Source of the DNA: a virus
Direction: 5' to 3' (one strand)
Length of the DNA stretch: 26,899 bases
IMG/VR virus record: IMGVR_UViG_3300044703_000087
Span: 1-26,899 of that record
Of the stretch, positions 1-20,976 are shown piece by piece. The position numbers and the translations under genes are program-made. Positions within the stretch are counted from its first letter, which is position 1. Every line of letters starts with the position of its first letter. The notes under the pieces are model-generated. The model had not been told where the DNA came from. It did no database searches and saw only the letters and a list, made by a program, of their open reading frames with translations.

Positions 1-1
1 T

Positions 2-61
2 TATGCACACAGTAACAAAGATATATTCCTTGCGACTGATAGTCAGAGGTCTAAACAATGA
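2..61 (+). CDS. C-terminal end of a gene-cassette ORF (partial)
   Basis: An open frame enters from the left edge and stops at a TGA about 27 bases before the first attC site, giving a residual peptide ending TDSQRSKQ. A stop codon shortly before an attC is the normal arrangement in integron cassettes, so this is probably the end of the preceding cassette gene. Too little is visible to suggest a function, and a chance open frame is possible. Confidence 0.3.
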   Translation, partial: YAHSNKDIFLATDSQRSKQ

Positions 62-87
62 ATCGTCTCATAAATGCCAACACCGCC

Positions 88-173
88 GCCGAACAACTCA
101 TTCCAGCCGACTCGCAATAGCGCGGCTCTTAAATTCCATGTTGATAGCTCGCCGGTTAATTCGAGCGTTAGGT
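88..173 (+). other. attC recombination site 1 (complete)
   Basis: The left core GCCGAAC (88-94) and right core GTTAGGT (167-173) bracket an imperfect inverted repeat of 86 bp. The left flank AACAACTCATTCCAGCC and right flank GCCGGTTAATTCGAGC match the other attC sites in the window with few changes. This is the most divergent of the six complete sites. Confidence 0.85.
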
Positions 174-203
174 GTTAGCGTCTAGCTAAAGGTTTAAGCA
201 AAA

Positions 204-791
204 ATGAATGAAATAGAGAAATGCTCAATAAGTGGATGTGGCTCACCAGCTCTTATTCTATCCCAGCCGCCCCGATGTCTATCACATGTCGAAGATGTAG
301 ATGGATGGTATGAGTCTTTAGACGAAATCATATCATCCAGTACTGATAATTCTTGGAAGCTAACAATGTCAGCGATTTCACATAATCTATATAGAGAATA
401 TCTTTTTACAGATTCAATTGGTGAAGAGTTATATCGTGACTTTAAGAAGCGTGTAAATCCATCGGATGATATTGAATTTCTTTTTGTGGATGTTGTCTAT
501 TTCGTTTTGTTGGCAGCAACATCTGGCATTGTAGGAAATTTTGCTTACGATGCTATAAAAACTATCATCAGAAAAATTAAAGATCGAGATAATGATTTGG
601 AAAAGGAGTTTAGTAATGTTATCAGAGTTGCTAAGTATGAGGAACTGCGAAGCCTCAAACATCCTGATAACTCAGCACAGCTTATCGTGGATGTAGAAAT
701 TGAACTCAGAATTAAAAAGAAATATCACTTGTTAATCCAGGAATGGGAAACTAAAGATTCCAATGTTCAGAATTATAATGATGAGCGGTGA
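204..791 (+). CDS. Cassette-encoded hypothetical protein with a probable membrane segment
   Basis: This 195-residue protein matches no family I recognise. An N-terminal stretch has cysteines at residues 7, 12 and 25, resembling a small metal-binding knuckle. A hydrophobic segment near residues 95-118 could be a membrane helix, and the rest is charged and helical. The gene is clearly richer in A+T than the phage genes, as expected for a foreign cassette. It starts about 30 bases after the right core of attC 1 and stops 12 bases before attC 2, so it fills one cassette. The ATG at 204 follows a weak purine-rich stretch. Confidence 0.7.
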   Translation: MNEIEKCSISGCGSPALILSQPPRCLSHVEDVDGWYESLDEIISSSTDNSWKLTMSAISHNLYREYLFTDSIGEELYRDFKKRVNPSDDIEFLFVDVVYFVLLAATSGIVGNFAYDAIKTIIRKIKDRDNDLEKEFSNVIRVAKYEELRSLKHPDNSAQLIVDVEIELRIKKKYHLLIQEWETKDSNVQNYNDER

Positions 792-802
792 AACAAAGGC
801 AC

Positions 803-840
803 ACCTAACAACTCATTCAACCCGCCTCGATAGCATCTCA
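803..840 (+). other. attC site 2, truncated (left part only)
   Basis: The left core ACCTAAC (803-809) and the conserved flank ACTCATTCAACCC are present, but no GTTAATTCGGGC-type right half follows within 150 bases. A weak GTTGAGA at about 890 is a poor candidate. The site is degraded or cut, the first of three such cases in the window. Confidence 0.6.
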
Positions 841-969
841 GTAATCTACTCTCGCCCAAAAGTTTTGGGTCAACTTTGGTGGAGCAATGGGGTTGAGAGA
901 GAGATAAGCTGTCAGTCCACGACGTTCAATACACATTGGGACTCAAGCTTGGTCTAATCATTCGTATGC

Positions 970-1815
970 CTACTTCCTTCTCTTTTTAGGTCTAGATTTC
1001 ACTCGCTTTTGGCGCAGCACCATTCTGCTAGTTTCCTTAAAAGCATTTTTTACTCCCCTATAAATGCTTAGGAAGTATCCGATAGAAAAGATTAAAGCAG
1101 CATAATACAGAAGTTCCTTTCTCCGATTTTCCTCACGTTGTGAAATTGTTCTTTCAAGCTCAAGTTCAAATGATCTATTCTCTGACTCCGATCGCATCTT
1201 CTCGCTCTCTAGCCGGGCATTGGTAGTTTCCAATTCTATAATATTAGACTGAATTTGGTTTTCAGTCTTACGAGTCTGCTCATAAACTGCCCGGGCATCC
1301 CTCGTAAGGTAAACAGATGAATAATCCTCTATTATTTTCAATGTACTAATATTAGTTTTTAGCGTGGCTTCTAATACCCTGGTTCTCTCGGTAAGTTCAG
1401 GGATACGGAAGGCTGTGCCTTTAAGTCTTGCAATAAGAAGTTCTATTCGCTTTCTAGTTTCAACAACCGAATTATAATTATCTTCAATTTGTTCTTCGTG
1501 GCCAATCGTCTGCCCTGAATCAACCATATCTTGTACAATTGATTGGAATTGTTTTGTTAGTGTTTCTGCAGCTTTACTCTCAGGACGAATCTGGTGAAGC
1601 AGATCCAGCATTCTACTATAGTCTTCTGACTGCACTTCAGCTTCATTATGTGAATTCGCCAAACGCACCTGTTCATTTGGGAGCCAAGATTGGTACCTAA
1701 CTATAACCGAGCCGCAATAGACAAAAGCCAGTGACGTGATGATCCAAATCGGCTCTTTGTAGGCTTGCGCCGTAAACAACTTAATAGCCTTTAATACTCT
1801 TTTGCGCCAAGTCAA
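970..1815 (-). CDS. Hypothetical coiled-coil protein with two membrane segments
   Basis: This 281-residue protein has a hydrophobic helix near residues 20-40, a long charged coiled-coil middle (about 50-230) rich in Glu/Arg/Gln heptads, a second hydrophobic helix near 233-253 and a very basic tail ending in RPKKRRK. The likely topology is two membrane anchors with a long extracytoplasmic coiled coil. I do not recognise a family. A TTG start at 1815 is chosen because AGGAGG lies 9 bases upstream. Its composition is AT-richer than the phage genes and closer to the cassette gene next to it. It sits where the tape measure gene would be expected, but nothing in it resembles one. It could be a phage accessory gene or an inverted cassette. 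Confidence 0.65.
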   Translation of the reverse strand: MTWRKRVLKAIKLFTAQAYKEPIWIITSLAFVYCGSVIVRYQSWLPNEQVRLANSHNEAEVQSEDYSRMLDLLHQIRPESKAAETLTKQFQSIVQDMVDSGQTIGHEEQIEDNYNSVVETRKRIELLIARLKGTAFRIPELTERTRVLEATLKTNISTLKIIEDYSSVYLTRDARAVYEQTRKTENQIQSNIIELETTNARLESEKMRSESENRSFELELERTISQREENRRKELLYYAALIFSIGYFLSIYRGVKNAFKETSRMVLRQKRVKSRPKKRRK

Positions 1816-1828: not shown

Positions 1829-1861
1829 CTGCTTCATTTTTGCCATTAAAGCCTGAAGCAG
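1829..1861 (-). promoter_or_regulatory. Inverted repeat abutting the Shine-Dalgarno of the 970-1815 gene
   Basis: CTGCTTCA (1829-1836) and TGAAGCAG (1854-1861) form a perfect 8-bp inverted repeat. On the minus-strand transcript the second arm ends directly at the GAGG of the ribosome binding site. Such a hairpin could modulate translation. It may also be fortuitous. Confidence 0.4.
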
Positions 1862-2144
1862 CATAACTACAATTTGACATCTACTAGGGGTAAATCTTCT
1901 CTAGGGCGAATCAACCTTTGATTTGAGACTAACGAGTAATGTCAGCAACGCGAGGGCTGAGAGAAGATATTAGCGGGTGGGTTTGGGGTGTCAATAGTGA
2001 GAAGAAAGCCATTCTACTTGGGCAGACTACCTATGAAGAATTGCAGCCAAGCGTAAAGATGATTTCCTGCCGCTCCTGATATGAACGTAGTGAGATCGGT
2101 TCCGTTAGGCAAAGCCTCGCGCCGGCTGTTTTTCGATTGCCTGC
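1862..2144. other. Region without a recognisable gene
   Basis: No convincing reading frame, tRNA or attC is visible. A GTTAGGC heptamer at 2104-2110 matches attC right cores but has no partner. This stretch is where the phage tail module breaks off: the chaperone extension ends at 2145 and no tape measure gene follows. Confidence 0.4.
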
Positions 2145-2390
2145 CTAATCTCTTTTCATCCTTGCGCGCTGCTCCGCAAACTTGACGGCCATTTCTTCAC
2201 CGTCAGCCTCACCGCCCTCTGCCGTAATGGCATAAGACATCCACACGCCCGCGTCAGGTCGCGCTAGTAGCTCCCACGGCGCGACGCCAAGAAAGCGCGC
2301 GGCTCTTACTACTCTGTACCAGCCGGGGACAGAGCCGGACTCTCCACCTGTTCCGAGGTGTTTTGCGAGTTCGGCTCTTTCGTAGGGCGA
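2145..2390 (-). CDS. Tail assembly chaperone, -1 frame extension (gpT-like)
   Basis: A frame at -1 relative to the upstream chaperone gene stays open through its stop codon and runs to a TAG at 2145-2147. It reads ...WYRVVRAARFLGVAPWELL and ends ...FAEQRARMKRD. The FLGVAPWELL stretch resembles the second chaperone ORF of many siphoviruses, a typical T-type segment. It has no suitable start codon near the overlap, so it is most likely made as a fusion with the upstream protein by -1 ribosomal frameshifting, as in the lambda G/GT pair. Slippage could occur around 2384-2393, where GGGT and CCCT allow single-tRNA slips, or at GCAAAAC (2360-2366). The exact site is inferred. The left boundary of the fusion segment is approximate. 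Confidence 0.6.
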   Translation of the reverse strand, partial: SPYERAELAKHLGTGGESGSVPGWYRVVRAARFLGVAPWELLARPDAGVWMSYAITAEGGEADGEEMAVKFAEQRARMKRD

Positions 2391-2737
2391 CCCTGCCAGA
2401 GCGCGATGAGGGCCTCTGCCGACGCTGCGAGGAACGTCATGGGCAGCTTCTTAAGAGTTTCTAAGTCGGTCCCAAGTGGCTCTCCGCCCAGCACGATGTC
2501 CCACGATTTGACCGTCTGGCTGATGATGCGCTGTAAGGCTTCAGCTTCGGATTTCTCTGAGGCCTCGCTGATCTCATCAATCAGATTTGCCGTGATGCGC
2601 TCGACGTAGACGAGCTGGTTGACCACGTAGGTCTGGTCCGTGCCCTTGGGCTGGTACTTGAAGGGGACCGGCACGGTCAAGTCTAAAATCTCCGCGATGT
2701 CGAGTGCGCCCATAGCGGGCGTAGGTTTCTTTTTCAT
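2309..2737 (-). CDS. Tail assembly chaperone (gpG-like), putative
   Basis: This 142-residue acidic protein lies directly after the tail tube genes, the position of the tail assembly chaperone that protects the tape measure protein during tail assembly in siphoviruses. It is mostly helical, with no membrane segment. The C-terminal 30 residues are low-complexity (S, P, E, T), as expected where a frameshift extension overlaps. The identification rests on gene order, size and the overlapping second frame more than on a motif. It starts with ATG at 2737 and is followed by the -1 frame segment ending at 2145. Confidence 0.6.
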   Translation of the reverse strand: MKKKPTPAMGALDIAEILDLTVPVPFKYQPKGTDQTYVVNQLVYVERITANLIDEISEASEKSEAEALQRIISQTVKSWDIVLGGEPLGTDLETLKKLPMTFLAASAEALIALWQGRPTKEPNSQNTSEQVESPALSPAGTE

Positions 2738-2832
2738 GACGTTTGTTTTGAATACTCCTCTAGGTAGGCCGAGCCTGTGTGGGAGGACAGGCCCGGCGCT
2801 CGCTATTTGGGGTGGGGTGAGGACTGACTGTG

Positions 2833-2857
2833 CTATCTGGTTATGGAATCCAGATAG
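2833..2857 (-). terminator. Perfect stem-loop right after the second tail tube gene
   Basis: CTATCTGG (2833-2840) and CCAGATAG (2850-2857) form an 8-bp stem with a 9-base loop, starting 2 bases past the stop codon of the 2860-3285 gene on the minus strand. No T-run follows, so it is more likely a transcript-stabilising or processing hairpin than an intrinsic terminator. Confidence 0.45.
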
Positions 2858-2859
2858 AA

Positions 2860-3285
2860 TTAGTAAACGGTGCGGGTAGGCGCGCCCGTGACCTGGAGTT
2901 CTGCGGTGAACTTATTAACGGCGCCGATGCTTGAGGGCGGCTCGTATTTCGTCAGGATGCAGTTGCCGGTGGTTTTCGGGTTGCCGGTCGTAGACCCGAT
3001 GGGTCCATGCTCGAAGGCGATCCCGGCGCCGGAATTGTCCTGGCCGAGAAGGCCCGTGAAGTGCGTCTCGATAGCCGCATCCCAGAATCCTTCAATCGAG
3101 ATGGTGCCGTCGGTAAGGCCCGCGACGTGCGCTTTCGCGCCCGATGCACCGAAGGCCGAGGCGTCCAGGTTATCAGCGGCCCAGGAAGGCTTGACGCTGG
3201 AGAGTTTGCTGCTGATGTCGGTGGCCGTGCTGGGCACGCCGACAGTTCCGAGTTTGAAAACGACGTTTTTTGCTGCTGAGGCCAA
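2860..3285 (-). CDS. Tail tube protein, short paralogue
   Basis: This 141-residue protein shares a block with its neighbour: LDASAFGASGAKAHVAGLTD here against LDASVFGTGNAKAYVAGLVD there, followed by a similar S(I/C)EGF(W/F)D segment. The pattern of a small beta-rich protein just before the tail chaperone fits the major tail tube protein of siphoviruses, which polymerises around the tape measure. A stem-loop follows its stop codon. The two tandem copies may be alternative tube subunits, or one may be a tube-initiator or decoration variant. Confidence 0.6.
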   Translation of the reverse strand: MASAAKNVVFKLGTVGVPSTATDISSKLSSVKPSWAADNLDASAFGASGAKAHVAGLTDGTISIEGFWDAAIETHFTGLLGQDNSGAGIAFEHGPIGSTTGNPKTTGNCILTKYEPPSSIGAVNKFTAELQVTGAPTRTVY

Positions 3286-3407
3286 TGAAGTGCTCCTTGG
3301 TAAGGTGAAGTGGTGAAGCGCTCGACTGAAGAAGCGCCGGAGGATAGTGAGAGTTCAGATGTCAGCTATCAGGTGACAGAAGCTGGTTACTGCCTACTGC
3401 CTACTGT

Positions 3408-4145
3408 CTAGCGTCGCGCGAAGGCGACAACCGGTGTGATCGAAGTGGTGCCCGAAACGAGCGTCGCTTGTGCTCGCACGTAGCGGTTGGTTGTGCCCGT
3501 GACTTCCGAGCGCTGTGCGCCCGCTGCGAGTGTGCGGTCCGAGACGTTCGTAAAGGTGATGAGGTCCACCCAGACCGAGTTATCGGTCGAATGCTGAATC
3601 TTGATCGTCCAGACTGCGGTCGCGTCGGTTTTCGCCGTGACGTGCAGGTGGCCGACGGCGCCGTTAGTCGTTCCCGCGGCGTTGTCCACCGAGGCGCTGT
3701 TAGCGGTCGCGGTCTCGGCCGTCTGCGGATGAAGGATGATGCCTGCTTCGAGGCCCTTCTGCTCGTTAGAGAGGTCGGCCATGACGCTGATGATCTGGCC
3801 GATGGTGGTGTTGACCTCGTACTTCGGACGCAAGGCGGAAAGAAGCTTGGCGCGAAGACCGATAGATGTGAGTCCCGCCGGGGCATAGGTGACGATTGCG
3901 GGCGGGGTGAGCGCAAGGCCGAGCACGTCGTCAATCTTGTTGGCGTTGACTGAGTCGGTGTCGAAGAAACCCTCGCATGAGAGAGAGCCGTCCACGAGCC
4001 CGGCGACGTATGCCTTGGCATTACCGGTCCCGAAAACTGAAGCATCGAGCTTATCAACTTCATTCGAAGGCTTGATGGCTTTGAAGAAGGCGGAGAGGTC
4101 GAACTGGTTGGCGATTAGCCTAACGTCTTTTGCGGCGTTTGCCAT
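3408..4145 (-). CDS. Tail tube protein, long paralogue with a C-terminal beta-sandwich domain
   Basis: The protein has 245 residues. The N-terminal half (about 1-140) is homologous to the 2860-3285 product, with the shared block near residues 33-60. The C-terminal part (about 165-245) reads ...HSTDNSVWVDLITF...NRYVRAQATL, which looks like a beta-sandwich (Ig- or discoidin-like) module of the kind displayed on phage tail tubes. The decoration-like protein at 7534-7974 contains a similar pattern. It is preceded by several head-tail joining genes and so is likely the major tail tube protein with a surface-exposed domain. The ATG at 4145 sits behind a purine-rich AGGAG. Confidence 0.65.
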   Translation of the reverse strand: MANAAKDVRLIANQFDLSAFFKAIKPSNEVDKLDASVFGTGNAKAYVAGLVDGSLSCEGFFDTDSVNANKIDDVLGLALTPPAIVTYAPAGLTSIGLRAKLLSALRPKYEVNTTIGQIISVMADLSNEQKGLEAGIILHPQTAETATANSASVDNAAGTTNGAVGHLHVTAKTDATAVWTIKIQHSTDNSVWVDLITFTNVSDRTLAAGAQRSEVTGTTNRYVRAQATLVSGTTSITPVVAFARR

Positions 4146-4147
4146 TA

Positions 4148-4399
4148 TTAATTAACTCCTTCAGGTGAAGACTTCGGGGAAGCCGAAAGCGAGACGGCGG
4201 GCGGGATGTGCGACAGTAAGTTCTGCGCGACTGTTTCGGGCAGCGCGACGTTCTTCTCGCCTGCCTCATGCCGTTTATTGTCTTTCCCGTAGTTGAAGCC
4301 GATCAGGACATCGTAACGGGGCTGGGGGTGTGTGGTTTTCTTCAACAATTTGCTCCAGGCCTGCAGACTTAGATTTAAGGCGCGACTTTCACATTCCAC
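4148..4399 (-). CDS. Small hypothetical phage protein
   Basis: This frame of 83 residues lies between the tail terminator and the tail tube genes. The start at 4399 overlaps the upstream gene by about 25 bases. The true start is uncertain, since no other ATG is available nearby. The sequence has a basic N-terminus and a serine/proline-rich tail, and no known domain. It fills an otherwise empty slot in a tightly packed operon, which is the main reason to call it. Confidence 0.5.
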   Translation of the reverse strand: MECESRALNLSLQAWSKLLKKTTHPQPRYDVLIGFNYGKDNKRHEAGEKNVALPETVAQNLLSHIPPAVSLSASPKSSPEGVN

Positions 4400-4791
4400 A
4401 TACTTCCTTTGAAGCGGTAAATCTCACTCACCTCAAAGGTCGAAAAATCAATATCACTTCGCCACCGGCACCAGATAAGCGTTTTCCCCGGGATTGAGAG
4501 TGCGGCGTCCTGCATCAAGGTCTTGAGTTTTGCCGCGGCGTCTTCCGCTGCTGCAGAAGAGATGTTCTTGTCAACGATACGCGCTGCGATGACGGTTGAT
4601 TCTTCGGCAGCTTTCGTTTGACCGAAGCTGTAACTGGGAATCGCGGGCGATTGAACCTGGACGACGCAATAAGGGAAAAGGCTTCCCTCCGGAGCAATGT
4701 CTTCAAAGACATCCGTGACGAGCGTCATGAAACCGCCTGTGCCTGTGTCGGCCTGCAGTTTCTTTCTAAAGCTTTCAGAAACGTCGCTCAT
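4375..4791 (-). CDS. Tail terminator / minor tail protein, putative
   Basis: This 138-residue protein has the layout of DUF3168/gpU-like tail terminators: a helical start, then FPYCVVQVQ, a middle helix (SSAAAEDAAAKLKTLMQDA) and a beta-rich end (YRFKGSMWNVKV). Tail terminators form a ring that caps the finished tail tube and joins it to the head. It lies directly after the gp10-like gene and before the tube genes, the canonical place. The assignment rests on position and general pattern. Confidence 0.55.
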   Translation of the reverse strand: MSDVSESFRKKLQADTGTGGFMTLVTDVFEDIAPEGSLFPYCVVQVQSPAIPSYSFGQTKAAEESTVIAARIVDKNISSAAAEDAAAKLKTLMQDAALSIPGKTLIWCRWRSDIDFSTFEVSEIYRFKGSMWNVKVAP

Positions 4792-4794
4792 CTT

Positions 4795-5193
4795 TTAATC
4801 CACCAGGTGACGCGCGCCCTCAATAAATTCCTGCCTGTGGTTTTCCGCTGCCGGAACAAATGAGGGCCGGGGAGCTATTTTGTCCGTCCCGAGTTCAAGG
4901 AGCACGGATACGGGATCGTCAGAACCAACGACCCGCTTGAGATCGCCCGCTTCTTCAGTGCGGACGCTTTTGACTAACTCTTTCGAGTCAATCGCAGGAG
5001 ACTCTCCCGGCGCAGAGGCCTGGTGAGTCTTTCCCTGGGCGCGCGTGTAAACGCGGCCGGACTTTTCCTCGGTCATGCCGGTCTTGATTTCAAGCTCGAT
5101 GTCGAGCGCTACTTTCTCAACCAGCACGGCCGCCCTGCGGTGGGTCTCTTCGCGGATGCGACCGAGATTATCTTTCAGAGTGACGTTGATCAT
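4795..5193 (-). CDS. HK97 gp10-like tail completion protein
   Basis: The 132-residue protein carries the hallmark pattern of the HK97-gp10 family: an N-terminal helix, a central loop with HQASAPGESPAIDSKELVKS, and a C-terminal LELGTDKIAPRPSFVPA motif. These proteins sit at the head-tail interface of siphoviruses and myoviruses. Its start overlaps the stop of the head-closure gene by 4 bases (ATGA), showing translational coupling. Confidence 0.8.
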   Translation of the reverse strand: MINVTLKDNLGRIREETHRRAAVLVEKVALDIELEIKTGMTEEKSGRVYTRAQGKTHQASAPGESPAIDSKELVKSVRTEEAGDLKRVVGSDDPVSVLLELGTDKIAPRPSFVPAAENHRQEFIEGARHLVD

Positions 5194-5564
5194 CCCTTTA
5201 GGACCGCTACCACTTCGATTACCACGCCCATCTGCTGCAGCACGTGGCTCACTTCAAAGGTGCGCGCGGGCTCTCCACCTCTCGCCGCCACCAGAATTTG
5301 ATCTTTGCCTTTCACGTCCGTCCCCGCAGGCAGCGTGATCCGGTAATTGGTGAAGCCGACAGGTGCCGCGGCGACGAGCTGGTCATTGCCCTTGAGCGGC
5401 TCGTACAGGCAGCGCACCGGCGTACCGCTGACCGCCGCGGGTGTCGAAGACTTTCCGCCCCTTCCGTCATCACTAAGGGCCGGGCGCATGATGTTGCATG
5501 TGTCCGGGGCCTGCGTGTTGAGGATGTCGGTAACGACTGTGCGGAGATCGTCAAAGAGCGCCAT
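5190..5564 (-). CDS. Head-tail joining (head closure) protein
   Basis: This 124-residue beta-rich protein resembles the phage head-tail joining family (lambda FII / SPP1 gp16 type). It has an N-terminal segment naming a construct-like 'CNIMRP', a central VRCLYEPLKG, and FTNYRITLPAGTDVKGKDQI, a pattern common in this family. It seals the portal channel after DNA packaging and offers the docking surface for the tail. It is coupled to the gp10-like gene downstream. Confidence 0.7.
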   Translation of the reverse strand: MALFDDLRTVVTDILNTQAPDTCNIMRPALSDDGRGGKSSTPAAVSGTPVRCLYEPLKGNDQLVAAAPVGFTNYRITLPAGTDVKGKDQILVAARGGEPARTFEVSHVLQQMGVVIEVVAVLKG

Positions 5565-5569
5565 TTTGT

Positions 5570-6316
5570 TTAGCCGAAATTAAGCGGCGCGAATTGCTGC
5601 GCCATGTTCAGGCAGTGTTCGTGAATCTGCTCGCGGGAAAACCCTAGGGACCCCAGCTTCATCGTGAAGTTGTTCGAGCACTTCTCAGCCTTGAGCAGCC
5701 AAGCTTCGTGCGCCGCGGCGCGCACGTCGTAGATATTGTCAAAGTCAGGCCCGAACTCTTCCCAGGTCAGCAAAGGATCGGCCGTGCCGTCGGTAACGCG
5801 CGCGCCGTTTCTCGTCGGCCAGAACGGCTCATTGCCGATTAGGGCTGTGGCTGCGACGGCACCGCTTCCGCCTCCTCCCGTAAAAGAGATTGTCGGAGCG
5901 GAGGTGTAGCCGCTTCCCTTATTCGTAATCACCACTGCCGTGACGACGCCCGCGGTCAAAAGAGCGATTGCCGCCCCGCCGCTTCCACCGCCTCCGGAGA
6001 GCGAGACAGTCGGAGCCGAGGTGTAACCGGTTCCACCGTTTGTGACGCTCGCGGCAACGACCGTCGCAGGGCTTGCAGCATCGCTTAAGCCTGCCTGAAC
6101 GCACCGATATTTGCGGCCGTTGCGAACCGTGGGGAGAACGATCTGGCCGAATGCGTAATAGGTGCCGGGCGCGTAGGTCGTCGCGCGCCTGTGCTTATCA
6201 AGGATCGTCTCCAGCTCCGTCGTGCCGGAGCCGGTCGTCAGCACCGGTTCAACCGCAGGCTGGACGAGTTGAGTCAGGCGCGCGAGAGCCGCTGTTCTGT
6301 CCGAAGCGTCGCTCAA
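5570..6316 (-). CDS. Head-tail connector-region protein with inserted glycine-rich repeats
   Basis: The 248-residue product has a helical N-terminus (1-45), a YRCVQAG beta segment (about 70-76), two tandem repeats at residues 91-117 and 130-155 built on GYTSAPT followed by SGGGGSGG-like runs, and a C-terminal helical part ([18 protein letters not shown]). The C-terminus looks like a gp6-type head-tail adaptor. The repeats are of the kind seen in phage fibre and adhesin proteins and seem inserted into the scaffold. Its start overlaps the preceding stop by 4 bases (6313-6316). Confidence 0.55.
5852..6046 (-). repeat. Two tandem GYTSAPT/glycine-run repeats inside the connector gene
   Basis: The two units encode [19 protein letters not shown] and [18 protein letters not shown], separated by 12-13 residues. 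They are the source of the long glycine- and serine-coding runs visible on the plus strand as repeated CCGCC-rich tracts. Confidence 0.8.
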
Positions 6317-6804
6317 TGAGAGACTCCGTTAAATTCAATGTGCTTGATGGCGGGAGGCTGCACGTCGGGGATTACCGCGCCCTCCGGCACGGGCGCGAAT
6401 GTTTCGCTCGTCAGCACGACGGTGAAGCAATTGCGCGGCTCATCATAAAAGGCACTAACTATCTGCGCGTCGGCGGGCAGAGGATTGGCGATTACTTCAA
6501 ACCAGCCGGAAGTAAATACCAGGAAGACTTCCGGCGTGATGCTAAAACGCGCCAGCCTGCGGGCGTCTTCTTCTTTGGCTGGATGAAGGCTCCTGGCGTT
6601 AAAGTCGCCGTAGACCTTGATGTAGCGCGGATCGGTCCACATGCAGGGGTCGCAAAGAATTGTCTCGCCGGGATTGGCATACTTGTCCCAGCCTGCGGGT
6701 GAATCCGTCGGTCTCACGTCGTAATAGCCGCCCGTAGCGAGGTCACTTCGCGTGCCTTCAATATTCTTCTTACAGCGTGAGCATGTGACGTGGACTTCAA
6801 TCAT
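6313..6804 (-). CDS. Hypothetical phage protein with a zinc-ribbon-like Cys motif
   Basis: This 163-residue protein has CSRC at residues 8-11 and CDPC near residues 51-54, a spacing that suggests one zinc site. The remainder ([18 protein letters not shown]...) is beta-rich and ends in a proline-rich linker. It is not recognised as a known structural protein, but it lies within the capsid/connector block between two other genes. Its job in the virion is unknown. Confidence 0.65.
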
Positions 6805-6809
6805 GGGTT

Positions 6810-7217
6810 TTAAGCCTCAACGAGTTCGCCGTTGCGAAGAAAACCGTGGTAGGTGCCGGAGAGGATTGAGCCTCCGCCTGCGCCGCACGTCTTCCCATTC
6901 TTATCAACCGTGATGTTGGGAGCCGTCCCGTGACGGACCCAGCACTTGTGATCGCCCTTAAGCGCGCCCTCACGGTCCGTACAGTTGGAGCAGATGGCGT
7001 CAATCATCCAGTCATGCCCATTGGGCAGCTTGACGACTAGGCATCGCCCGTCGGGACCTGCAAAGGCCGTTCGAGTTTGCTCATAGCCGAGCATCCAGTC
7101 GGCATACCACATCGCGCCTGCCGGAACCCCAGCCAGTGAAAAGAACTCTTCACCGGTGTCGAGTCGCTTCCAGACGCGATCAGCGTCAACCTCGACTATG
7201 AAACACCTGACGCTCAT
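6810..7217 (-). CDS. Hypothetical phage protein, Cys-rich in the second half
   Basis: The 135-residue protein reads ...DWMIDAICSNCTDREG followed by a second cysteine pair (CW and TCGAGGG). The ICSNCT segment followed by a later HKCW resembles a conserved phage head-region protein of unknown function found between capsid and connector genes. The start touches the stop of the preceding small gene (overlap at 7217), so the two are co-translated. A zinc-stabilised fold is inferred. Confidence 0.65.
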   Translation of the reverse strand: MSVRCFIVEVDADRVWKRLDTGEEFFSLAGVPAGAMWYADWMLGYEQTRTAFAGPDGRCLVVKLPNGHDWMIDAICSNCTDREGALKGDHKCWVRHGTAPNITVDKNGKTCGAGGGSILSGTYHGFLRNGELVEA

Positions 7218-7456
7218 TACTTGCCGGGACCTTTTACCGATTTGTTCTCGGCGGGCTTGACAGCCTTGGTCTGCGGCGCGGCTTTCACCGATTTGTTTTC
7301 TGTTTCCTGACGCATGACGTTACCTGCAGGCGTGCGCACCATCTGGCCGTCAGCGAGCTGCATCTCGACGTTGCCGTCACGAATGCGGAGAACGCTCGCG
7401 GTGACCAGCACTGCTTCGCCCGGATTAAAAAGCTCTTTGGGTTTTTCGCGTGGCAT
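7217..7456 (-). CDS. Small basic hypothetical phage protein
   Basis: I choose the ATG at 7456 (MPREKPKELFNPGEAVLV), because the longer frame reaching 7612 reads through the preceding intergenic DNA and overlaps the decoration-like gene. The resulting 79-residue protein has a small beta-barrel-like part (about 12-47) and a lysine-rich tail with the repeated word ENKSVK. No clear Shine-Dalgarno is present. Role unknown; it may be a capsid accessory or connector component. Confidence 0.55.
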   Translation of the reverse strand: MPREKPKELFNPGEAVLVTASVLRIRDGNVEMQLADGQMVRTPAGNVMRQETENKSVKAAPQTKAVKPAENKSVKGPGK

Positions 7457-7533
7457 ATGCAATGAAGGGAAAGGCTGGGGGCGGATATGCTCCGCCCCCG
7501 AATACGCTCTCCTACTCGCGGTAGGTGCGGCTA

Positions 7534-7974
7534 TTAGACTGAAACCGGCGTTGCAGCCTGCGAGACGAGCGCGGAACCGCGCCCGTTGAAGAGCAGGATT
7601 TGCGCCGAGCAAAGATCAATCGGAGTCGTGCCCGAAACGTCGGCAACCACGCGCAGGTAGCGAGAGCGCTTCTGCAGGTTGACGTTGATCAGGTAGACGT
7701 TGCCGGAAGTGGCGTTCGGCGTAACATCGCCGAGCACTCCGGTCGTCGCGCCCGAAACGGCAACCCAGGTGGAGTTATCGACGGACTCTTCGACCTTGAA
7801 TTCGATGGTCTCGTCACCCGTGGTGCGGTCATGCGCGCCCAGGTGGCAGATCACTAATGCTTTTTCAAAACCACGGCAATCCACGCCAAGTCCGTTGGCG
7901 TCAGCCGTGCGGCTCTCCGGGTCCAAGCTCGGCTTGACCAGGACGTGTGAGCTGGGAGTATGGATGTTAGACAC
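7534..7974 (-). CDS. Capsid decoration-like protein, putative
   Basis: This 146-residue beta-rich protein is encoded immediately after the major capsid gene, a usual place for a capsid decoration or head-fibre protein. The part reading VEESVDNSTWVAVSGATTG...SRYLRVVADVSGT resembles the C-terminal domain of the long tail tube paralogue (STDNSVWV...RYVRAQ), so both probably carry the same beta-sandwich module. No catalytic motif is seen. A strong stem-loop separates it from the capsid gene. Confidence 0.55.
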   Translation of the reverse strand: MSNIHTPSSHVLVKPSLDPESRTADANGLGVDCRGFEKALVICHLGAHDRTTGDETIEFKVEESVDNSTWVAVSGATTGVLGDVTPNATSGNVYLINVNLQKRSRYLRVVADVSGTTPIDLCSAQILLFNGRGSALVSQAATPVSV

Positions 7975-8003
7975 TTTCTTATTCTCCTGTTGGTGTGCTC
8001 ACA

Positions 8004-8039
8004 CCGGGCGGCCATTGGCCTTTAGCTTTCACCGCCCGG
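8004..8039 (-). terminator. Stem-loop between major capsid and decoration genes
   Basis: CCGGGCGG (8004-8011) and CCGCCCGG (8032-8039) form a perfect 8-bp GC-rich stem. There is no T-run on the minus strand, so partial termination or mRNA protection downstream of the abundant capsid message is more likely than full termination. Confidence 0.45.
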
Positions 8040-8100
8040 CTGAACACTTATCACTGACTATGGTTGATTACTGACTGGTGAGGTCACTGACTCCCAGCAA

Positions 8101-9468: not shown

Positions 9469-9577
9469 TTTGAAAATCCTTTGCGGTTGATGTGGGCCGC
9501 GCAACAAAGGGCGCAGGCCGCGGAGGTTGGAGGATGAGCGGCCTAAAGAGGTAAGGGAGCCGCCAGAGGTCAAGGTA

Positions 9578-11200: not shown

Positions 11201-11342
11201 AGTGTGATAGGGATCTGGTAATTGATGCGGTGGGAGTATATTCTTTATATGCGTTAGCCGCCTAATTCTGTAACCTAGCAGAAAGTGCTAATGATTTTGA
11301 TACTCGCGCGGGATTAGACGGTGATTTGGGCGTAATACATGA

Positions 11343-11374
11343 CGCCTATTAGTACGCCTAATAGTAGTTAGGCG
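11343..11374. repeat. Tandem 12-bp direct repeat and palindrome between capsid promoter and array 2
   Basis: CGCCTATTAGTA (11343-11354) is followed directly by CGCCTAATAGTA (11355-11366) and the inverted GTTAGGCG (11367-11374). A further CGCCTAAT occurs at 11259. This is probably a protein-binding site in the divergent region. The GTTAGGC at 11367 also matches attC right cores and may be the left border of array 2. Confidence 0.5.
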
Positions 11375-11459
11375 CTTGCGCTCATGATGCAGGCCAAGGA
11401 GCTATGGGCTAGAGGATGAGATGCGATAGTATGAGCCATCAATTTGTGGAGGAAGCATC

Positions 11460-12664: not shown

Positions 12665-13027
12665 CTAAGCCAAAGAATTAATGACCGCCACGAAAAGCCT
12701 CTGCCTGTGCCGCTCAATCACGGGTAGCTTCTCCCACTCGCACACATTCGGGTCCCACTTCTTTTCTTCGTTGAAAACGGTCCCGCGCGTCCAACCGGCC
12801 TTCAATTGTCGCTTGACCCATTTTATATGCCGGAGCTGCGCGCCCTCGATCCGATTGTTGATGGTGTATCGCACGGCATCGCAAACTGCTTTCCGCTCGT
12901 CTTCATCCATCTCGTCCCAGAAGCGCACGTCTTCGTCTTTGAAAACGCCGTGCAGGATTTGAAGCTCAAGCATCGCGTTATAAGCGACCTGCGCGACGTG
13001 CATGAGGTCTGTTTCAGATACAGGCAT
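12665..13027 (-). CDS. RyR-domain phage protein
   Basis: The 120-residue protein carries the pattern of the RyR (ryanodine receptor repeat) domain: His67 and Trp70 (LRHIKWVKRQL), Gly-Trp at 78-79, Lys90 followed by an acidic stretch, Leu-Pro at 101-102, Glu105 and a closing RLFVAVINSL. Bacterial and phage RyR domains are mostly of unknown role; ligand or nucleotide binding has been proposed. Its ATG directly follows the portal stop codon (TAAATG), so it is co-translated with the portal protein. It is the last gene of this phage unit before cassette array 2. Confidence 0.75.
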   Translation of the reverse strand: MPVSETDLMHVAQVAYNAMLELQILHGVFKDEDVRFWDEMDEDERKAVCDAVRYTINNRIEGAQLRHIKWVKRQLKAGWTRGTVFNEEKKWDPNVCEWEKLPVIERHRQRLFVAVINSLA

Positions 13028-14473
13028 TTAATTCTCCGCAGGCTTATCAGTCGGCTTGTCAGTCGGCTTGTCGGTTGGTTTGGTTCCATCACCGGTACCA
13101 TCCGGGTTCGGCGCGGTGATCTGCGCTTTGTAGATGTCTTCATGCGTGCCGGTTTTCAACCCGGCTGCGGATCGCACCTCGCTTAACTTGATCCAGTTGC
13201 CGTTAAAGCCGATGGTAAGGCGCTGATAAAGCTTGTTCATATCATCCTGCAGCACTCGCACCTGCGTCAGATCGTGACGCAGCTTCTCAGTCTTTGACTT
13301 CTGTAGCCGCGCACGCTTATCCGACATGAGCTGCTGGTTCAACACACCGGCGATGATTCGCTGCAGCGGGATCACGCAGGATTCATAGGCCTGTTCGCGG
13401 AGTTCCCGCATCGTCGCCCCTACTTTGGTTTGCTCCAGGCCGACGCCGAAACCGATCACGCCCGCGGGAATGCCCAGGACCGCGGCCACGCGCTCTTCCG
13501 GGAGACGGCGCAGCTCCTTCATGTCCATCTCTTTTGGACTAAAGGCCATCTTCTGCACGTCAACGCCGATGCCGTTGACGATGGGCTTGCCGCGCTCGTC
13601 GCCGGTCGTCTTACGAACGAACTCTTCTCTGACTTTCGTTAAGTCAGAGTCTATGTCGCCGACATTAGCTTTCGGACTGACGACGAACGGGAAGATGCCG
13701 CAGTTTTTCATCAGCAGCGCGCTGCAACTGGAAGCCTCATTGTCGCCGTAGATTTCGCGAAGCAGGGATGCCAGGTCAGAGAGGCCCTTGCGGGTGTTGG
13801 TCGGATCAATACCGTTTCGGAAATGGATGATGTCTTCGGGCGGGATGTTCCACTCCACGCCGTTGACCAGATATGCATAGTGCGTGATGAAAATTGAATC
13901 ATCACCGATTTTCCAGCGCGGCTCTACCAGAAAGTGCGGCAGCCACCAGAGCTGTATTACCTGGCCGAGCGCATTCCTGATCTTCCAGAAGTAGACGTTG
14001 CCGTCAATGATCCAGGACATCGCGAAGCACATCCAGAGAAGTTCACCCGTGTAGTAATCATTCGGCTGCTGGAGAAGGAGCGCGGCCTCGTGGTCCTGGA
14101 TGATATTGGTCTTGCCGTCGGCCAGTTGCTCAAAGACTTCGAGCGGGGCTTCAGGCAATGTGCGGCCGAGATATTTGACAGCCGCCATCACAAGAGAGCT
14201 TTGGGTGAGGTCGCCTACCTCGCGATTATAATCAATGCGGCTGTTGGCAAAGCGACCGAACATGGATTGGAAATATCGCTCAAAGCTCTGTCCCTGCCCG
14301 CCGTCGTAGCCGTGGTGATGGACGATTGAAGCTGTGCCGGAGCCCGCAGCTTTCTCTTCAGGAGATTCCAGGCCGAGGACGTTATGCCGTTGCGGATCGT
14401 CTTCGCCACGGAAGTATGCCAGTGCAGAGGTAAAGCGTTCTGTGAAGCTGTGAGGCTTTTTGTCTTCGTTCAT
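13028..14473 (-). CDS. Portal protein, HK97/SPP1-like phage family
   Basis: Portal proteins form the dodecameric ring through which DNA enters and leaves the capsid. Of about 480 residues, the core (about 85-420) shows family features: SSLVMAAVKYLGRTLPEAPLEV, GELLWMCFAMSWIIDGNVYFWK, IIHFRNGIDPTN..KGLSDL and LPEERVAAVLGIPAGVIGFG. The C-terminus is a low-complexity tail with TDKP repeated three times. I prefer the ATG at 14473 (MNEDKKPHS), which overlaps the TerL stop as TAATG behind AGGA; an ATG at 14488 would add five residues. Confidence 0.92.
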   Translation of the reverse strand: MNEDKKPHSFTERFTSALAYFRGEDDPQRHNVLGLESPEEKAAGSGTASIVHHHGYDGGQGQSFERYFQSMFGRFANSRIDYNREVGDLTQSSLVMAAVKYLGRTLPEAPLEVFEQLADGKTNIIQDHEAALLLQQPNDYYTGELLWMCFAMSWIIDGNVYFWKIRNALGQVIQLWWLPHFLVEPRWKIGDDSIFITHYAYLVNGVEWNIPPEDIIHFRNGIDPTNTRKGLSDLASLLREIYGDNEASSCSALLMKNCGIFPFVVSPKANVGDIDSDLTKVREEFVRKTTGDERGKPIVNGIGVDVQKMAFSPKEMDMKELRRLPEERVAAVLGIPAGVIGFGVGLEQTKVGATMRELREQAYESCVIPLQRIIAGVLNQQLMSDKRARLQKSKTEKLRHDLTQVRVLQDDMNKLYQRLTIGFNGNWIKLSEVRSAAGLKTGTHEDIYKAQITAPNPDGTGDGTKPTDKPTDKPTDKPAEN

Positions 14474-15927
14474 TATCCTACTGTCCATTCTCTCTTTATC
14501 TTCATCAGTCGATAGCGGGTGAGGTCGCCCATGTGGTCTTCGGCTTCGGTGTCAACGTCGTCGGGTTTGTTTGCATCGCGGGGAAGGACCGGCACCGTCC
14601 GAATCCATTGCGTGCAGGTATCAAATATGAAGATGCCGGGCTCTTCCAGCGGGAACTTGAGAGCTGCTTTCAAATATTTTCTTAAGCGCTCCCATCCGGT
14701 CTTACGGCTCCCAGGTGTCTTGTCGGCTTTGATCCACTTGACGCCCGCCTTACGCATGTCGTCGGCGATGCAGACGCCGTTCTCCGCGTCGTAGATAGAG
14801 CTGTCGGCGGGCCCCGGCTTGATTTCCGCGTCCTTCCCGATCAGCCCGCCTTCGCGCATCGCTTCTTCACGCTCCAGGATGCCGGGCAAGCGCGTCCCAT
14901 CTTCCTGCTCCTTGCCGGAAGCGATCTCTACGGCCAGCAGTTTAAGCCCGACGTTGGCGCGGCCTGTCCAGCCGTACCATTCGTTGATGAGAAAGATCGT
15001 CCCGCGTGGGAATGTGCGCTTCGTGCCGTCGGCCAGCGTTGCCTCCGTACCGTCGGATTCGGCCCACCAGGCGACGCCGAACGGATGAGAGCTGCCCCAG
15101 TCGAAGGAACGATCCAGAGACCAGCTCGAAGGGATTGTGAAAGGCTGAATAACGTGCCTTGCCCTCTTCCAAAGATCATCGAGCATGCCGCCCGCGACGA
15201 TGTCCCAGTCGCCCCTTCGCATGGCGCGAACTAATTCGGAGCTGCCGAGGCCTTCGAGACGACTTTCGTAATCCGGATCGTTCTCTGTGAGCGTCGGGTT
15301 GTCTTCCAGGAGCGCGGGAATGAATTGCCGTTGCATTCCGCCTTCACCCTTCGGCATCTCCCTAATCTGCATCTGGGCAGCGTTATCCACGAAGGATAGC
15401 TTGACCCAGTTGTGGCCGATTGAGCCCGGGTTGCTGCCGCAAAGTATCCGTGGAAAGACGCCGCGGTACTCTTCCGGAATCTGCAGGCCGCCAAGGCGCA
15501 CGCGACCACGCAGGAACCTGTACATCTCCTCCAGGAAGTGAGTCAGCTCGTCCATCAGGAGCACATGTATTTCTGCGCCCTGATACTTCGCCAGGTCTTT
15601 TACGTACTGGCAGTGGCAGAGGAAAATCTTCGAGTTGTTCCAGAATTCAATTGTCAAATCGGAGTAGTTGATCTTGATTCGCTTCTGATTGATCAACTCT
15701 CCGAGCAAGATAGGAAAGCTCGTAGGGCCTTCCATATGGTTTTTCAAAAGTTCCGGTCGCGTCCGCCGGAAGAGATAGACCTGCAGCCCCGGGATCAACA
15801 TGCACCAGGCGATTGCCGCGATTCTCATGAGGTGACTTTTCCCGCCACCCGCGGCCCCGCCGTAGAGAATCTCAGTCGCTCGGCTTAAGAGGGCCAGACC
15901 CTGTTTGTGATGAAGTCGGAGGTTCAA
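14473..15927 (-). CDS. Terminase large subunit
   Basis: The 484-residue packaging motor has a Walker A GGAAGGGKS at residues 23-31, a Walker B VLLMDE with Asp126 and Glu127, and a C-terminal RNase H-like nuclease domain starting with RSFDWGSSHPF (Asp276). A later acidic site, PADSSIYDAENG, is the likely second metal ligand. It cuts concatemeric phage DNA and pumps it through the portal. Its start lies inside the end of the small-subunit gene (overlap of 56 bases), which indicates coupled translation. Confidence 0.95.
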   Translation of the reverse strand: MNLRLHHKQGLALLSRATEILYGGAAGGGKSHLMRIAAIAWCMLIPGLQVYLFRRTRPELLKNHMEGPTSFPILLGELINQKRIKINYSDLTIEFWNNSKIFLCHCQYVKDLAKYQGAEIHVLLMDELTHFLEEMYRFLRGRVRLGGLQIPEEYRGVFPRILCGSNPGSIGHNWVKLSFVDNAAQMQIREMPKGEGGMQRQFIPALLEDNPTLTENDPDYESRLEGLGSSELVRAMRRGDWDIVAGGMLDDLWKRARHVIQPFTIPSSWSLDRSFDWGSSHPFGVAWWAESDGTEATLADGTKRTFPRGTIFLINEWYGWTGRANVGLKLLAVEIASGKEQEDGTRLPGILEREEAMREGGLIGKDAEIKPGPADSSIYDAENGVCIADDMRKAGVKWIKADKTPGSRKTGWERLRKYLKAALKFPLEEPGIFIFDTCTQWIRTVPVLPRDANKPDDVDTEAEDHMGDLTRYRLMKIKREWTVG

Positions 15928-16219
15928 TGATTATGTTCACCGTCGGCATGAGATCTTTGCCGTTCTCGCCCGTATGCTCGATCTTCTCCTTGGCCTTGCC
16001 GTAGAGCCTGTCGAAGAGCATGGCGCGCGCTGCGTGCCTGGTCTTAAACCCGGCGGCGAGGCAGTCCTGCACGAGCTGCTCGAAGATTTTGTCGAGGCGG
16101 TTTGTCCGGCCATCCTTCAAAGCCTTATCAAGCCGCCTGCGCAGGTCGTCTTCAAGCGACTTGGACTTTCGCCCTGCGCCAAGGCGTGCGCCTCCGTTTT
16201 TTGCTCTTCCGTCTTCCAT
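15872..16219 (-). CDS. Terminase small subunit, putative
   Basis: The 115-residue protein lies just upstream of and overlapping TerL. It begins with a basic, glycine-rich stretch (GARLGAGRKSKSLED), continues with helices (DKIFEQLVQDCLAAG...ARAMLFDRLYG) and has KAKEKIEHTGENGKD, a segment very common in small terminase subunits. Such proteins bind the packaging site on phage DNA and regulate the motor. The identification rests on this pattern together with gene order. Confidence 0.8.
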   Translation of the reverse strand: MEDGRAKNGGARLGAGRKSKSLEDDLRRRLDKALKDGRTNRLDKIFEQLVQDCLAAGFKTRHAARAMLFDRLYGKAKEKIEHTGENGKDLMPTVNIIIEPPTSSQTGSGPLKPSD

Positions 16220-16234
16220 GATTGAAACAGCCGG

Positions 16235-16435
16235 TTAAAAAAGCGGCTTGACCAATCCAAGTCGCACTGACGAGATAAAATGAAAAATGAATTGCACAAG
16301 GCAGTGGACGCCCACTGTGTAAGTGAGGATTCCGGGGATGCGTAAAAGCGCGTTGGCCATGACAAAGTGTTGCTCGGCCATCCACGAATGCTTTTGCTCA
16401 GGCGTGAGGATGAAGGTAACGGTTACATCCGGCAT
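16235..16435 (-). CDS. Small hypothetical protein with a hydrophobic C-terminal half
   Basis: The 66-residue frame ends 15 bases before the TerS start and fills the gap in the operon. Residues about 33-58 are hydrophobic (LTYTVGVHCLVQFIFHFIS) and could be a membrane segment. No Shine-Dalgarno is obvious, and no family is recognised. It may instead be non-coding leader sequence. Confidence 0.4.
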   Translation of the reverse strand: MPDVTVTFILTPEQKHSWMAEQHFVMANALLRIPGILTYTVGVHCLVQFIFHFISSVRLGLVKPLF

Positions 16436-16447
16436 GAAAAAGTCTCT

Positions 16448-16582
16448 TTATTTAGGCAAGCGCCGCCAGCTTTTTCTAGAGCATCGTCGGCAACGGTAAA
16501 GTTCCGCCTTGTGGGTCTTGTCCTCGTATGAGTACCACTGCTCCCAGATATGAGCTGCAATCCAGCAGACGATAACCTTCAT
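16448..16582 (-). CDS. Small basic protein with a CxxC motif
   Basis: This short frame of 44 residues starts with MKVIVCWIAAHIWEQW and has CRRC followed by SRKSWRR near the end. AAGGA lies about 8 bases before the ATG. It fits neatly between the metallopeptidase gene (stop at 16596) and the 16235-16435 frame. The basic CxxC tail could bind nucleic acid or metal. Function unknown. Confidence 0.5.
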   Translation of the reverse strand: MKVIVCWIAAHIWEQWYSYEDKTHKAELYRCRRCSRKSWRRLPK

Positions 16583-16595
16583 TTGCTTTCTATCC

Positions 16596-17219
16596 TTACC
16601 TGCAGCTTCCGCACGCCGCTTTGATCTGCGCCTTCGTGATGAGCGGCTCCTTCTGCGAGGCCTCGACCATCAACTGCACGTTCGGGTGAACTGCTCCCAG
16701 CCCATAGCGCCTGACGACCTCTATGAACTCCGTCACGTCGTGCTCGCGTTTTGTGAGCACGGGCCGGTCGAGATCGTCGAACAGCAGCTCGCCCTCTTTA
16801 TTCTTCTTCTGGGCATAGTGATAAAGCTCATGCTCGAAGAGAGCGCAGGCCGTCTCGTGATCACACATGGCCCAGAATGGCGCGTAGAGCCAGACACGGG
16901 CCTGCGGTATGTTCCCGTGCATCAGGCAGAGGTGATCAGTCCTCTCAGCTTTCGCCCAGGGCTTCCCATTAACATTGACGATTTCCGCCATCCCTGCGAC
17001 CGGCATCAGGCCGTCCTCATACTCGACGTTTGTGAACATGACTGCCATGTCCACCGCGCGCAGGTGCTCGTGATCCGGATTGTAGAAGATTGCGTTCTCG
17101 TCCACGAACATCTGCTTTGCCCACGCCCATACGTCCAGCGACGGCTCAATATTGAATCCGGGCTCGTGGAGATGCGGGGGAGGTAGTGGACGTGGCAAAC
17201 CTGAATTTGTTTCGTGCAT
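16596..17219 (-). CDS. Putative phage metallopeptidase (HExxH)
   Basis: The 207-residue protein contains HELYH at residues 130-134 within ACALFEHELYHYAQ, a zinc-peptidase-type HExxH motif, followed by a possible third ligand at His160 or Asp161 (KREHDVTEFI). This resembles the putative phage metallopeptidase family found near terminase genes, whose substrate is not known. Residues 96-100 (HLCLM) and ARVWLYAPFW form a beta-rich part before the active site. It is second in the unit driven by the conserved promoter element at 17425. Confidence 0.75.
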   Translation of the reverse strand: MHETNSGLPRPLPPPHLHEPGFNIEPSLDVWAWAKQMFVDENAIFYNPDHEHLRAVDMAVMFTNVEYEDGLMPVAGMAEIVNVNGKPWAKAERTDHLCLMHGNIPQARVWLYAPFWAMCDHETACALFEHELYHYAQKKNKEGELLFDDLDRPVLTKREHDVTEFIEVVRRYGLGAVHPNVQLMVEASQKEPLITKAQIKAACGSCR

Positions 17220-18237: not shown

Positions 18238-18303
18238 TTTGAAGAAATAGAGAAATAGCCTGATTAGGTTCAGTCTAGCGTTAAAAGTCGCCTATAGGTA
18301 GTA

Positions 18304-18391
18304 TTAGACCGAAGGGTTCGGTAATTTACCTCTATTCTACTACTTAGACCGCAGTCGGACTAAATGAATTAGACCGAATGGTTCGGTCTAA
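18304..18391. promoter_or_regulatory. Three operator-like palindromes
   Basis: TTAGACCGAA is repeated with an inverted partner TTCGGTCTAA. Site 3 (18369-18391) is perfect, with 10-bp arms and a 3-base spacer. Site 1 (18304-18324) and site 2 (18344-18363) are imperfect. The half-site TAGACC is like that reported for some TetR-family operators. They lie between the divergent phage regulator promoter and the first cassette of array 3, so they could control either direction. Confidence 0.6.
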
Positions 18392-18418
18392 CTAGCGTTA
18401 TGCCGACAGAAGGTGTCT

Positions 18419-19897: not shown

Positions 19898-19978
19898 CAA
19901 CTCATTCAACCGGAGCGGCAACAGCGTTGATTTCATCATCCAATCTTGATTGCCGCCCGGTTAATTCGGGCGTTAGAT
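19892..19978 (+). other. attC recombination site 7 (complete, short)
   Basis: The left core GCCTAAC (19892-19898) and right core GTTAGAT (19972-19978) flank the conserved arms AACTCATTCAACCGGAGC and CGCCCGGTTAATTCGGGC. At 87 bp, its variable middle is shorter than in its neighbours. Confidence 0.93.
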
Positions 19979-20009
19979 GTCTTTCCTTTGAGCGAGAGGA
20001 GCCAGTGGG

Positions 20010-20351
20010 ATGATCATTTGGAGCGGTATGGGCGGCATCGTCATCGTCATTGCCGCTATCACGCTTGTTCTAACAGAGCTCTCCGTAAGGTTCGTCTTCC
20101 GGGACGAGAACTATTACCAGGCCCACGGCTGGCCCAAACTCCTAGCGCTCTGGGCTGCGGGGTTGCTAACCTGGCTACTAAGCCGGTACTTGAACCAGAA
20201 GCAGGCAAGGGTGCTGATCGACAAGGAGACCGGCGAGGAGGTCGTTCTTAAACCTAAGCACTCCCTGTTCTTCATCAGGTTGGAATACTGGGTTTATATC
20301 TTCTTCGCACTAGGGATAGTGTTCTTCTTCGACCGGGAAGGCCCGAGGTGA
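20010..20351 (+). CDS. Cassette-encoded three-span membrane protein
   Basis: The 113-residue protein has three hydrophobic stretches (about residues 4-24, 44-58 and 90-108), with a conserved-looking soluble loop reading VLIDKETGEEVVLKPKHSLF between the second and third. Similar small membrane proteins are frequent among hypothetical products of environmental integrons, although the function is unknown. The ATG at 20010 is preceded by GAGGAG about 10 bases upstream. It is richer in G+C than its neighbour cassettes. Confidence 0.65.
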   Translation: MIIWSGMGGIVIVIAAITLVLTELSVRFVFRDENYYQAHGWPKLLALWAAGLLTWLLSRYLNQKQARVLIDKETGEEVVLKPKHSLFFIRLEYWVYIFFALGIVFFFDREGPR

Positions 20352-20368
20352 GGCTCTGCTAAGGCGAC

Positions 20369-20471
20369 ATCTAACAACTCATCCAACCGGAGCGGAATGA
20401 GCCTGCCTTTCATCCGCTAGATTGGGTGCTTCTTGCAGTTGTCTCCCGCCCGGTTAATTCGGGCGTTATGT
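20369..20471 (+). other. attC recombination site 8 (complete)
   Basis: The left core ATCTAAC (20369-20375) and right core GTTATGT (20465-20471) enclose AACTCATCCAACCGGAGCGG and CGCCCGGTTAATTCGGGC. Length 103 bp. Confidence 0.93.
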
Positions 20472-20493
20472 TGCTTAGCTATGAGAAACGAAT

Positions 20494-20910
20494 ATGCGTA
20501 AGATTTTAGCCATCCTACTAATCGCAAATTTGGCGGCTTTAGTTTCTTCGCAAGAACCTGCTAAAAACGAAGACGAAGAAAGAACTCTATCTAAGTTGCT
20601 TAAGGTTCCTTCAGCAACTTATAAATTCACCGCAGATAATAGCGGCGTTGCCTTTTGCAATCTGACACGAGTAGCAATTAAAGGTTTTCGTCCTGGTTGC
20701 GTCGAAAAGAAAGATGACAAATTCTTAATCCTCGAAAAGCGTAATTTTGAAGATGCTAAAATCCCTGGGGAAAGAAAAAATCGTCGTCTTTGCAGAGTTA
20801 GCTTCGTCAATCATGGTGGTTTTCCATACGGGGGCGAGTGCGAGCGAGGCAAGTTAGCGGTAATTGAAGTTGCATTGGCGAATGGGACAGTGTGGAAGTT
20901 GGTACCATAG
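20494..20910 (+). CDS. Cassette-encoded secreted protein
   Basis: The 138-residue precursor has an N-terminal signal peptide (MRKILAILLIANLAALVSSQ, cleavage probably near residue 20) and a mature part with three cysteines (CNLTRV, GCVEKK, LCRVSF) and a further CERG, so disulfides are possible. The ATG at 20494 is used; an ATG at 20481 in another frame overlaps it. No known family is recognised. It is the last cassette of array 3 and is followed by a truncated attC. Confidence 0.65.
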   Translation: MRKILAILLIANLAALVSSQEPAKNEDEERTLSKLLKVPSATYKFTADNSGVAFCNLTRVAIKGFRPGCVEKKDDKFLILEKRNFEDAKIPGERKNRRLCRVSFVNHGGFPYGGECERGKLAVIEVALANGTVWKLVP

Positions 20911-20932
20911 ACCCCATGTTCTATCATGGGCA

Positions 20933-20976
20933 ACATAACAACTCATTCAACCGGAGCGCAGGTAACGCGATTTATG
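20933..20976 (+). other. attC site 9, truncated (left part only)
   Basis: The left core ACATAAC (20933-20939) and the flank AACTCATTCAACCGGAGCGC are followed by about 20 bases still resembling attC stem, then by the stop codon of a phage gene at 20977. The right half is missing. Confidence 0.8.

Follow-up and report, generated by a model that had tools for sequence, protein, structure and literature searches.

The window, i.e., the whole stretch of 26,899 bases analyzed here, is recorded as a linear viral fragment and represents an incomplete genome. Annotation with PHROGs revealed the minus-strand order TerS-TerL-portal-connector-(block 2)-protease-capsid-tail (Table 1), in which the small terminase (TerS) was called by position only. 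This is the usual order in tailed phages, and the ordered presence of TerL, portal, protease, capsid and tail genes places the window in the Caudoviricetes. Annotated phages provided only distant relatives of the portal and capsid, at less than 60%. No Rfam family matched and no tRNA was found in the window. As stated in a first-pass annotation of this DNA, no integrase-like ORF is present among the annotated window proteins of this 26.9-kb partial genome. The same annotation had described a prophage, for which the window gives no support: within the fragment available, neither host flanks nor a phage integrase was seen, and the linear contig has no replication or integration module. A 26-base repeat, ATATACATTTCGACTNNNTGCTATAA, occurs in the phage direction at 11169-11194, 17424-17449 and 24407-24432, with further copies in the related record L009. 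These promoter-like repeats may act as promoters; on that reading, blocks 2 and 3 seem to lie where one phage operon has ended and the promoter of a following operon lies ahead.

Table 1. Positions and strands of integron-like and phage features in the window.
Feature	Position	Strand	Basis or remark
Block 1, array 3' end cut by contig start	1..838	+	full attC, one ORF, half attC
attC, full	88-173	+	covariance model; block 1
Cassette ORF, 195 aa, no family	204-791	+	block 1
Half attC	about 804-838	+	block 1 end
ORF, 281 aa, coiled coil, no PHROG	970-1815	-	starts 52 nt after attI-like core at 1867
attI-like core TAGATGTCAAATTGTA/GTTATGCTG, cleavage G at about 1867	1859..1883	-	17.9 bits, host attI matrix
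Phage tail and head genes	2309..11062	-	PHROGs
Two major tail proteins	2860-3285, 3408-4145	-	PHROGs
Capsid	8101-9615	-	PHROGs
Protease	9578-11062	-	PHROGs
attI-like head of block 2, host type	11311..11375	+	24.8 bits; 76-88% to host heads
Cassette ORF, 132 aa, membrane/zinc-ribbon-like	11460-11858	+	block 2
attC, full	11882-11983	+	94.2 bits, E 5e-22; block 2
Cassette ORF, 204 aa, DUF4145	12015-12629	+	PF13643 above cut-off; MAG homologue 63%; block 2
Half attC (R''+L'')	12627-12650	+	block 2 end; 38 nt from stop codon of convergent phage gene
Phage region with connector-like gene	12665..17219	-	PHROGs and Pfam
Portal	13028-14488	-	PHROGs and Pfam
TerL	14473-15927	-	PHROGs and Pfam
Putative TerS	15872-16219	-	position
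Metallopeptidase	16596-17219	-	PHROGs and Pfam
attI-like head of block 3	18301..18403	+	inverted TTAGACC box pairs, then CGGTCTAACTAGC/GTTATGCC; 15.0 bits
Cassette ORF, 102 aa	18413-18721	+	block 3
attC, full	18716-18817	+	91.7 bits; block 3
Cassette ORF, 71 aa, zinc-ribbon-like (weak)	18852-19067	+	block 3
attC, full	19110-19211	+	105.1 bits, E 8e-25; block 3
Cassette ORF, 217 aa, N terminus membrane-like	19244-19897	+	block 3
attC, full, short loop	19892-19978	+	85.2 bits; block 3
Cassette ORF, 113 aa, membrane-like	20010-20351	+	block 3
attC, full	20369-20471	+	91.4 bits; block 3
Cassette ORF, 138 aa, signal peptide-like start	20494-20910	+	block 3
Partial attC	20933-20977	+	17.6 bits, E 0.03; ends at stop codon of phage gene 20977-21492
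Phage lysis region, including unknown genes	20977..24265	-	PHROGs
Phage gene bordering block 3	20977-21492	-	
Endolysin	22785-23852	-	PHROGs
Resolvase-like	23786-24265	-	PHROGs

Three blocks among the intact tailed-phage genes hold eight cassette ORFs, all on the plus strand. The eight ORFs, six full and three partial attC sites that had been listed before are all present, and so are the three blocks, except that block 1 reaches to about 1867 and blocks 2 and 3 start slightly further upstream, at about 11311 and 18301, respectively. The attC sites are direct repeats with the half-sites R''-L'' TAACAACTCATTCAACCGGAGCG and L'-R' CGCCCGGTTAATTCGGGCGTTAG, and share an identical stretch of about 23 bases. 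Under the rule that a CALIN has at least two tandem attC sites with ORFs between them and no intI nearby, block 3 is a CALIN (four full attC sites, five ORFs); blocks 1 and 2, with one full site and a half site each, fall singly below the usual two-site rule. None of the five window cassettes submitted to PADLOC matched a defence system.

To score the attC sites without circularity, a covariance model (R2) was built solely on attC sites from Acidobacteriota metagenome-assembled genomes (MAGs), using an alignment of 43 sites, all from the MAGs in which the half-site pattern had matched. Since the RNAalifold structure for this alignment missed the outer stem, a named structure was used instead. 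In the host sites, the model helices covary (16 pairs, 10 of them changed on both sides; 88.7% of cells paired). In the window, R2 picked out six full attC sites and no more, at 48-105 bits and E-values of 4e-10 to 8e-25, which upholds the six full sites proposed earlier, whereas the 69 other related viral loci (921 kb) gave zero matches at E<=1. Thus, the attC sites in the window are not chance matches. They combine R''/R' and L''/L' pairing with a conserved GTTRRRY core and match the model over its full length; bottom-strand folding by itself is weak for several of the six. In the site at 11882-11983, the L''/L' stem is altered on both sides, CGCG/CGCG replacing CCGG/CCGG.

The earlier reading overlooked attI-like heads. 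A matrix made from 16 host array heads scored 24.8 bits at 11367 (+), 17.9 at 1867 (-) and 15.0 at 18397 (+); among 1.63 million positions of other viral DNA, a score of 15.0 was reached once and 17.9 never. The head of block 2 resembles, at 76-88%, the array heads of MAG G001 (Acidobacteria bacterium 13_1_20CM_3_53_8) and the sequence that separates intI from the first cassette (attI) in QHXM01000076, where the adjacent intI scores 485 bits on TIGR02249. The core of block 3 is nearly identical to the intI-linked attI CGGTCTAATGAGC/GTTATGCC of locus L138, and its head is 92% identical over 100 nt to an array head in L009; as a 100-nt element, this head was not found in 21 MAGs. The ORF at 970-1815 has no attC at its 3' end; because an attI-like site lies 52 bases before it, we interpret it as the leading cassette of a unit that faces the other way. 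All blocks had been described as facing one way, which does not hold for this unit or for one of the arrays in L009. Set against a complete integron, the window has attI sites, assigned by sequence likeness, and lacks intI. With these attI-like heads, the blocks resemble docking platforms more than simple cassette clusters.

The arrays were also compared with those of bacteria. In genome contigs, the half-attC pattern occurred in 63 stretches, all within Acidobacteriota MAGs, and 12 of 21 of these MAGs encode an IntI above the TIGR02249 cut-off. In MAG G001, at least seven arrays with an attI head lie on contigs of their own (L183-L189), and no IntI exceeds the family cut-off. The integrons and arrays of Blastocatellia/Pyrinomonadaceae MAGs share with the window the attC family, the attI architecture and the attI-headed organization; they differ in that they lie on the bacterial chromosome, in many genomes with intI, whereas the window arrays lie in a phage. 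The phage is from soil and, by its attC and attI type, is linked to the Acidobacteriota as probable hosts, most likely of Blastocatellia type. No window cassette was found in host arrays (two were searched against 162 genomes, the others against the fetched host loci only), and the DUF4145 cassette homologues in two MAGs (G021 and G124) have no attC of the window's family nearby. When the portal was sought in 162 genomes belonging to the class of the MAG, only two distant prophage-like loci came up, and the one retrieved did not contain the window's attC family. Several host attC sites (L127, L130 and L132) end in CGGTTAGATAC(C/T)GT where L'-R' would normally stand, which may mark an array end that they have in common.

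When 2.9 million viral contigs were searched for exact matches to the attC and attI patterns, L009 was the sole find. L009 is an independent metagenome record of 9,213 bases, with identities to the window of 85% in TerL, 77-79% in the portal and 82% in the protease. It carries an array of four cassettes at the same head-gene junction as block 2 (J2, connector/protease), and in both phages the convergent phage gene has its stop codon 38 nt from the start of the half attC; the cassettes of the two are unrelated, with none in common. R2 found three strong full attC sites and one weak site in L009. A second L009 array, upstream of TerL, runs in the phage direction. The earlier claims that cassettes were added to the phage and form several separate stores are borne out, with further support from the L009 array, which has other cassettes at the same junction. 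The first L009 cassette (6698-7432) encodes a protein with a TIR domain (TIR_2, E 9e-26) and could be a defence gene that the phage carries; another encodes a COQ7/rubrerythrin-like product. In L168, a more distant relative at about 60%, portal and protease are joined by two small sense ORFs in a closed junction, and no attC was found. L167 comes from the metagenome that also yielded L009; where the window has block 1, it carries an antisense gene.

The repeats of about 23 identical bases could in principle have joined phage and bacterial contigs into a chimeric assembly. We find this scarcely credible, since the phage-array junction is the same to the base in the independent L009 and the gene order runs on across the arrays. 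For eight phage genes compared between the window and L009 or L167, dN/dS, derived from the computed dN and dS, was about 0.07-0.24 at dS of 0.75-1.6. Such purifying selection on the phage genes that surround the arrays argues against both a chimera and decay. Invasion of a decaying prophage by cassettes would have a precedent in the cryptic prophage M16-3, which has an integron and an attC cluster (PMC9892861); it is very improbable here, as the tested head and tail genes are open and under purifying selection and no host flanks are seen.

These results suggest that the window is, fairly probably, a partial tailed-phage genome with three or four integrase-less integron platforms that would be loaded by host IntI. 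The attC sites, attI-like heads, likeness to host integrons, conserved border with different cargo and intact phage genes are direct observations. Each platform would pair an attI-like site for docking with one to five cassettes and their attC sites, the last attC being decayed and near a phage stop codon. Host IntI, acting in trans, may recombine cassettes into and out of the phage attI sites, and the phage could by such exchange take accessory genes from the host pool and carry them between cells. Against this reading, no exchange or recombination event was observed, the phage sequence has no IntI, and no window cassette turned up in the host arrays searched; the weak bottom-strand folding of several attC sites and the low score of the block 3 attI core also weigh against it. 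Going further, the phage lineage may maintain, at several operon junctions, attI sites dedicated to docking and swap cassettes with the integrase of any host it infects, a proposal that we make tentatively. As only one close relative is known, cassette turnover rests on a single comparison. The dead terminal half attC (12627 in the window; 4320-4341 in L009) stays in place though the last cassette differs. Such a site should lock the last cassette, and the difference between the phages therefore counts against the platform model.

Host-driven loading of platforms has to be weighed against passive pick-up, in which chromosomal blocks of attI and cassettes entered by homologous or illegitimate recombination and are inert or merely expressed, without IntI exchange. 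The seven or more attI-headed arrays on separate contigs of MAG G001 would make such blocks common donors, the ragged half-attC ends of the phage arrays also occur in host arrays, and one attI type heads block 3 of the window and the J2 array of L009, i.e., different phage junctions in the two phages. However, the J2 border is common to L009 and the window and the cassettes are not, which would require repeated block exchange at one point, and the full attC and attI cores are still intact; on balance, we regard passive pick-up as unlikely, while giving it some weight. It is improbable that the part of the phage genome absent from the contig holds an integron integrase gene: the contig is a linear fragment without a replication or integration module and complete integrons are known in phages (PMC9892861), yet no IntI was found at E<=1e-8 in 22 related viral records of up to 88 kb (distant or partial).

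Phage morons are accessory genes placed among late phage genes, often in their own orientation. The window likewise has accessory genes between late genes, and differs in that they are delivered as attC cassettes in arrays. A survey of phage integrons reported 17 attC clusters, three complete integrons and an integrase lacking cassettes, and demonstrated that IntI1 recombines attC sites of phages (Qi et al., 2023, PMC9892861). The virulent phages TJE1, P12002L and PH101 resemble the window in carrying attC cassettes without an integrase within the phage genome (PMC9892861). As reported, they show one cluster per phage with no attI assigned and have other hosts, whereas the window has several clusters with attI-like heads; nor does that paper compare related phages, as was done here with L009. 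An inverted GTTRRRY repeat that PMC9892861 reports upstream of the TJE1 cluster would resemble the head of block 3; an exact search of 49,000 bases of TJE1 did not find it. In the cryptic Shewanella prophage M16-3, as in the window, an attI heads an integrase-less attC cluster that adjoins structural genes of the phage (Qi et al., 2023, PMC9892861). M16-3 differs in also having a complete integron, while the window has several head types in a lineage under selection and no intI was seen.

Thus, attC clusters in phages and an attI-headed cluster in a cryptic prophage are already published (PMC9892861). What is new is that a single phage lineage carries several arrays headed by attI sites of different types, placed at conserved junctions and with cargo turnover, in phages that attC and attI type appear to link to the Acidobacteriota; we found no description of such a lineage in the open-licence literature. 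How bacteria come to exchange the cassettes of their sedentary chromosomal integrons is an open question, for which such a phage offers a direct vehicle. If the attI sites are indeed dedicated docking sites, the virion would be a vehicle for the cassette pool of its host group, here a phylum with little-studied integrons. Several attI-headed arrays at fixed places, with cargo turning over while the phage genes stay, provide a testable system. In MAG G124, a homologue of the DUF4145 cassette (48%; L179:4400-5152) lies antisense and without attC in the apparent head gene cluster of an unrelated prophage.
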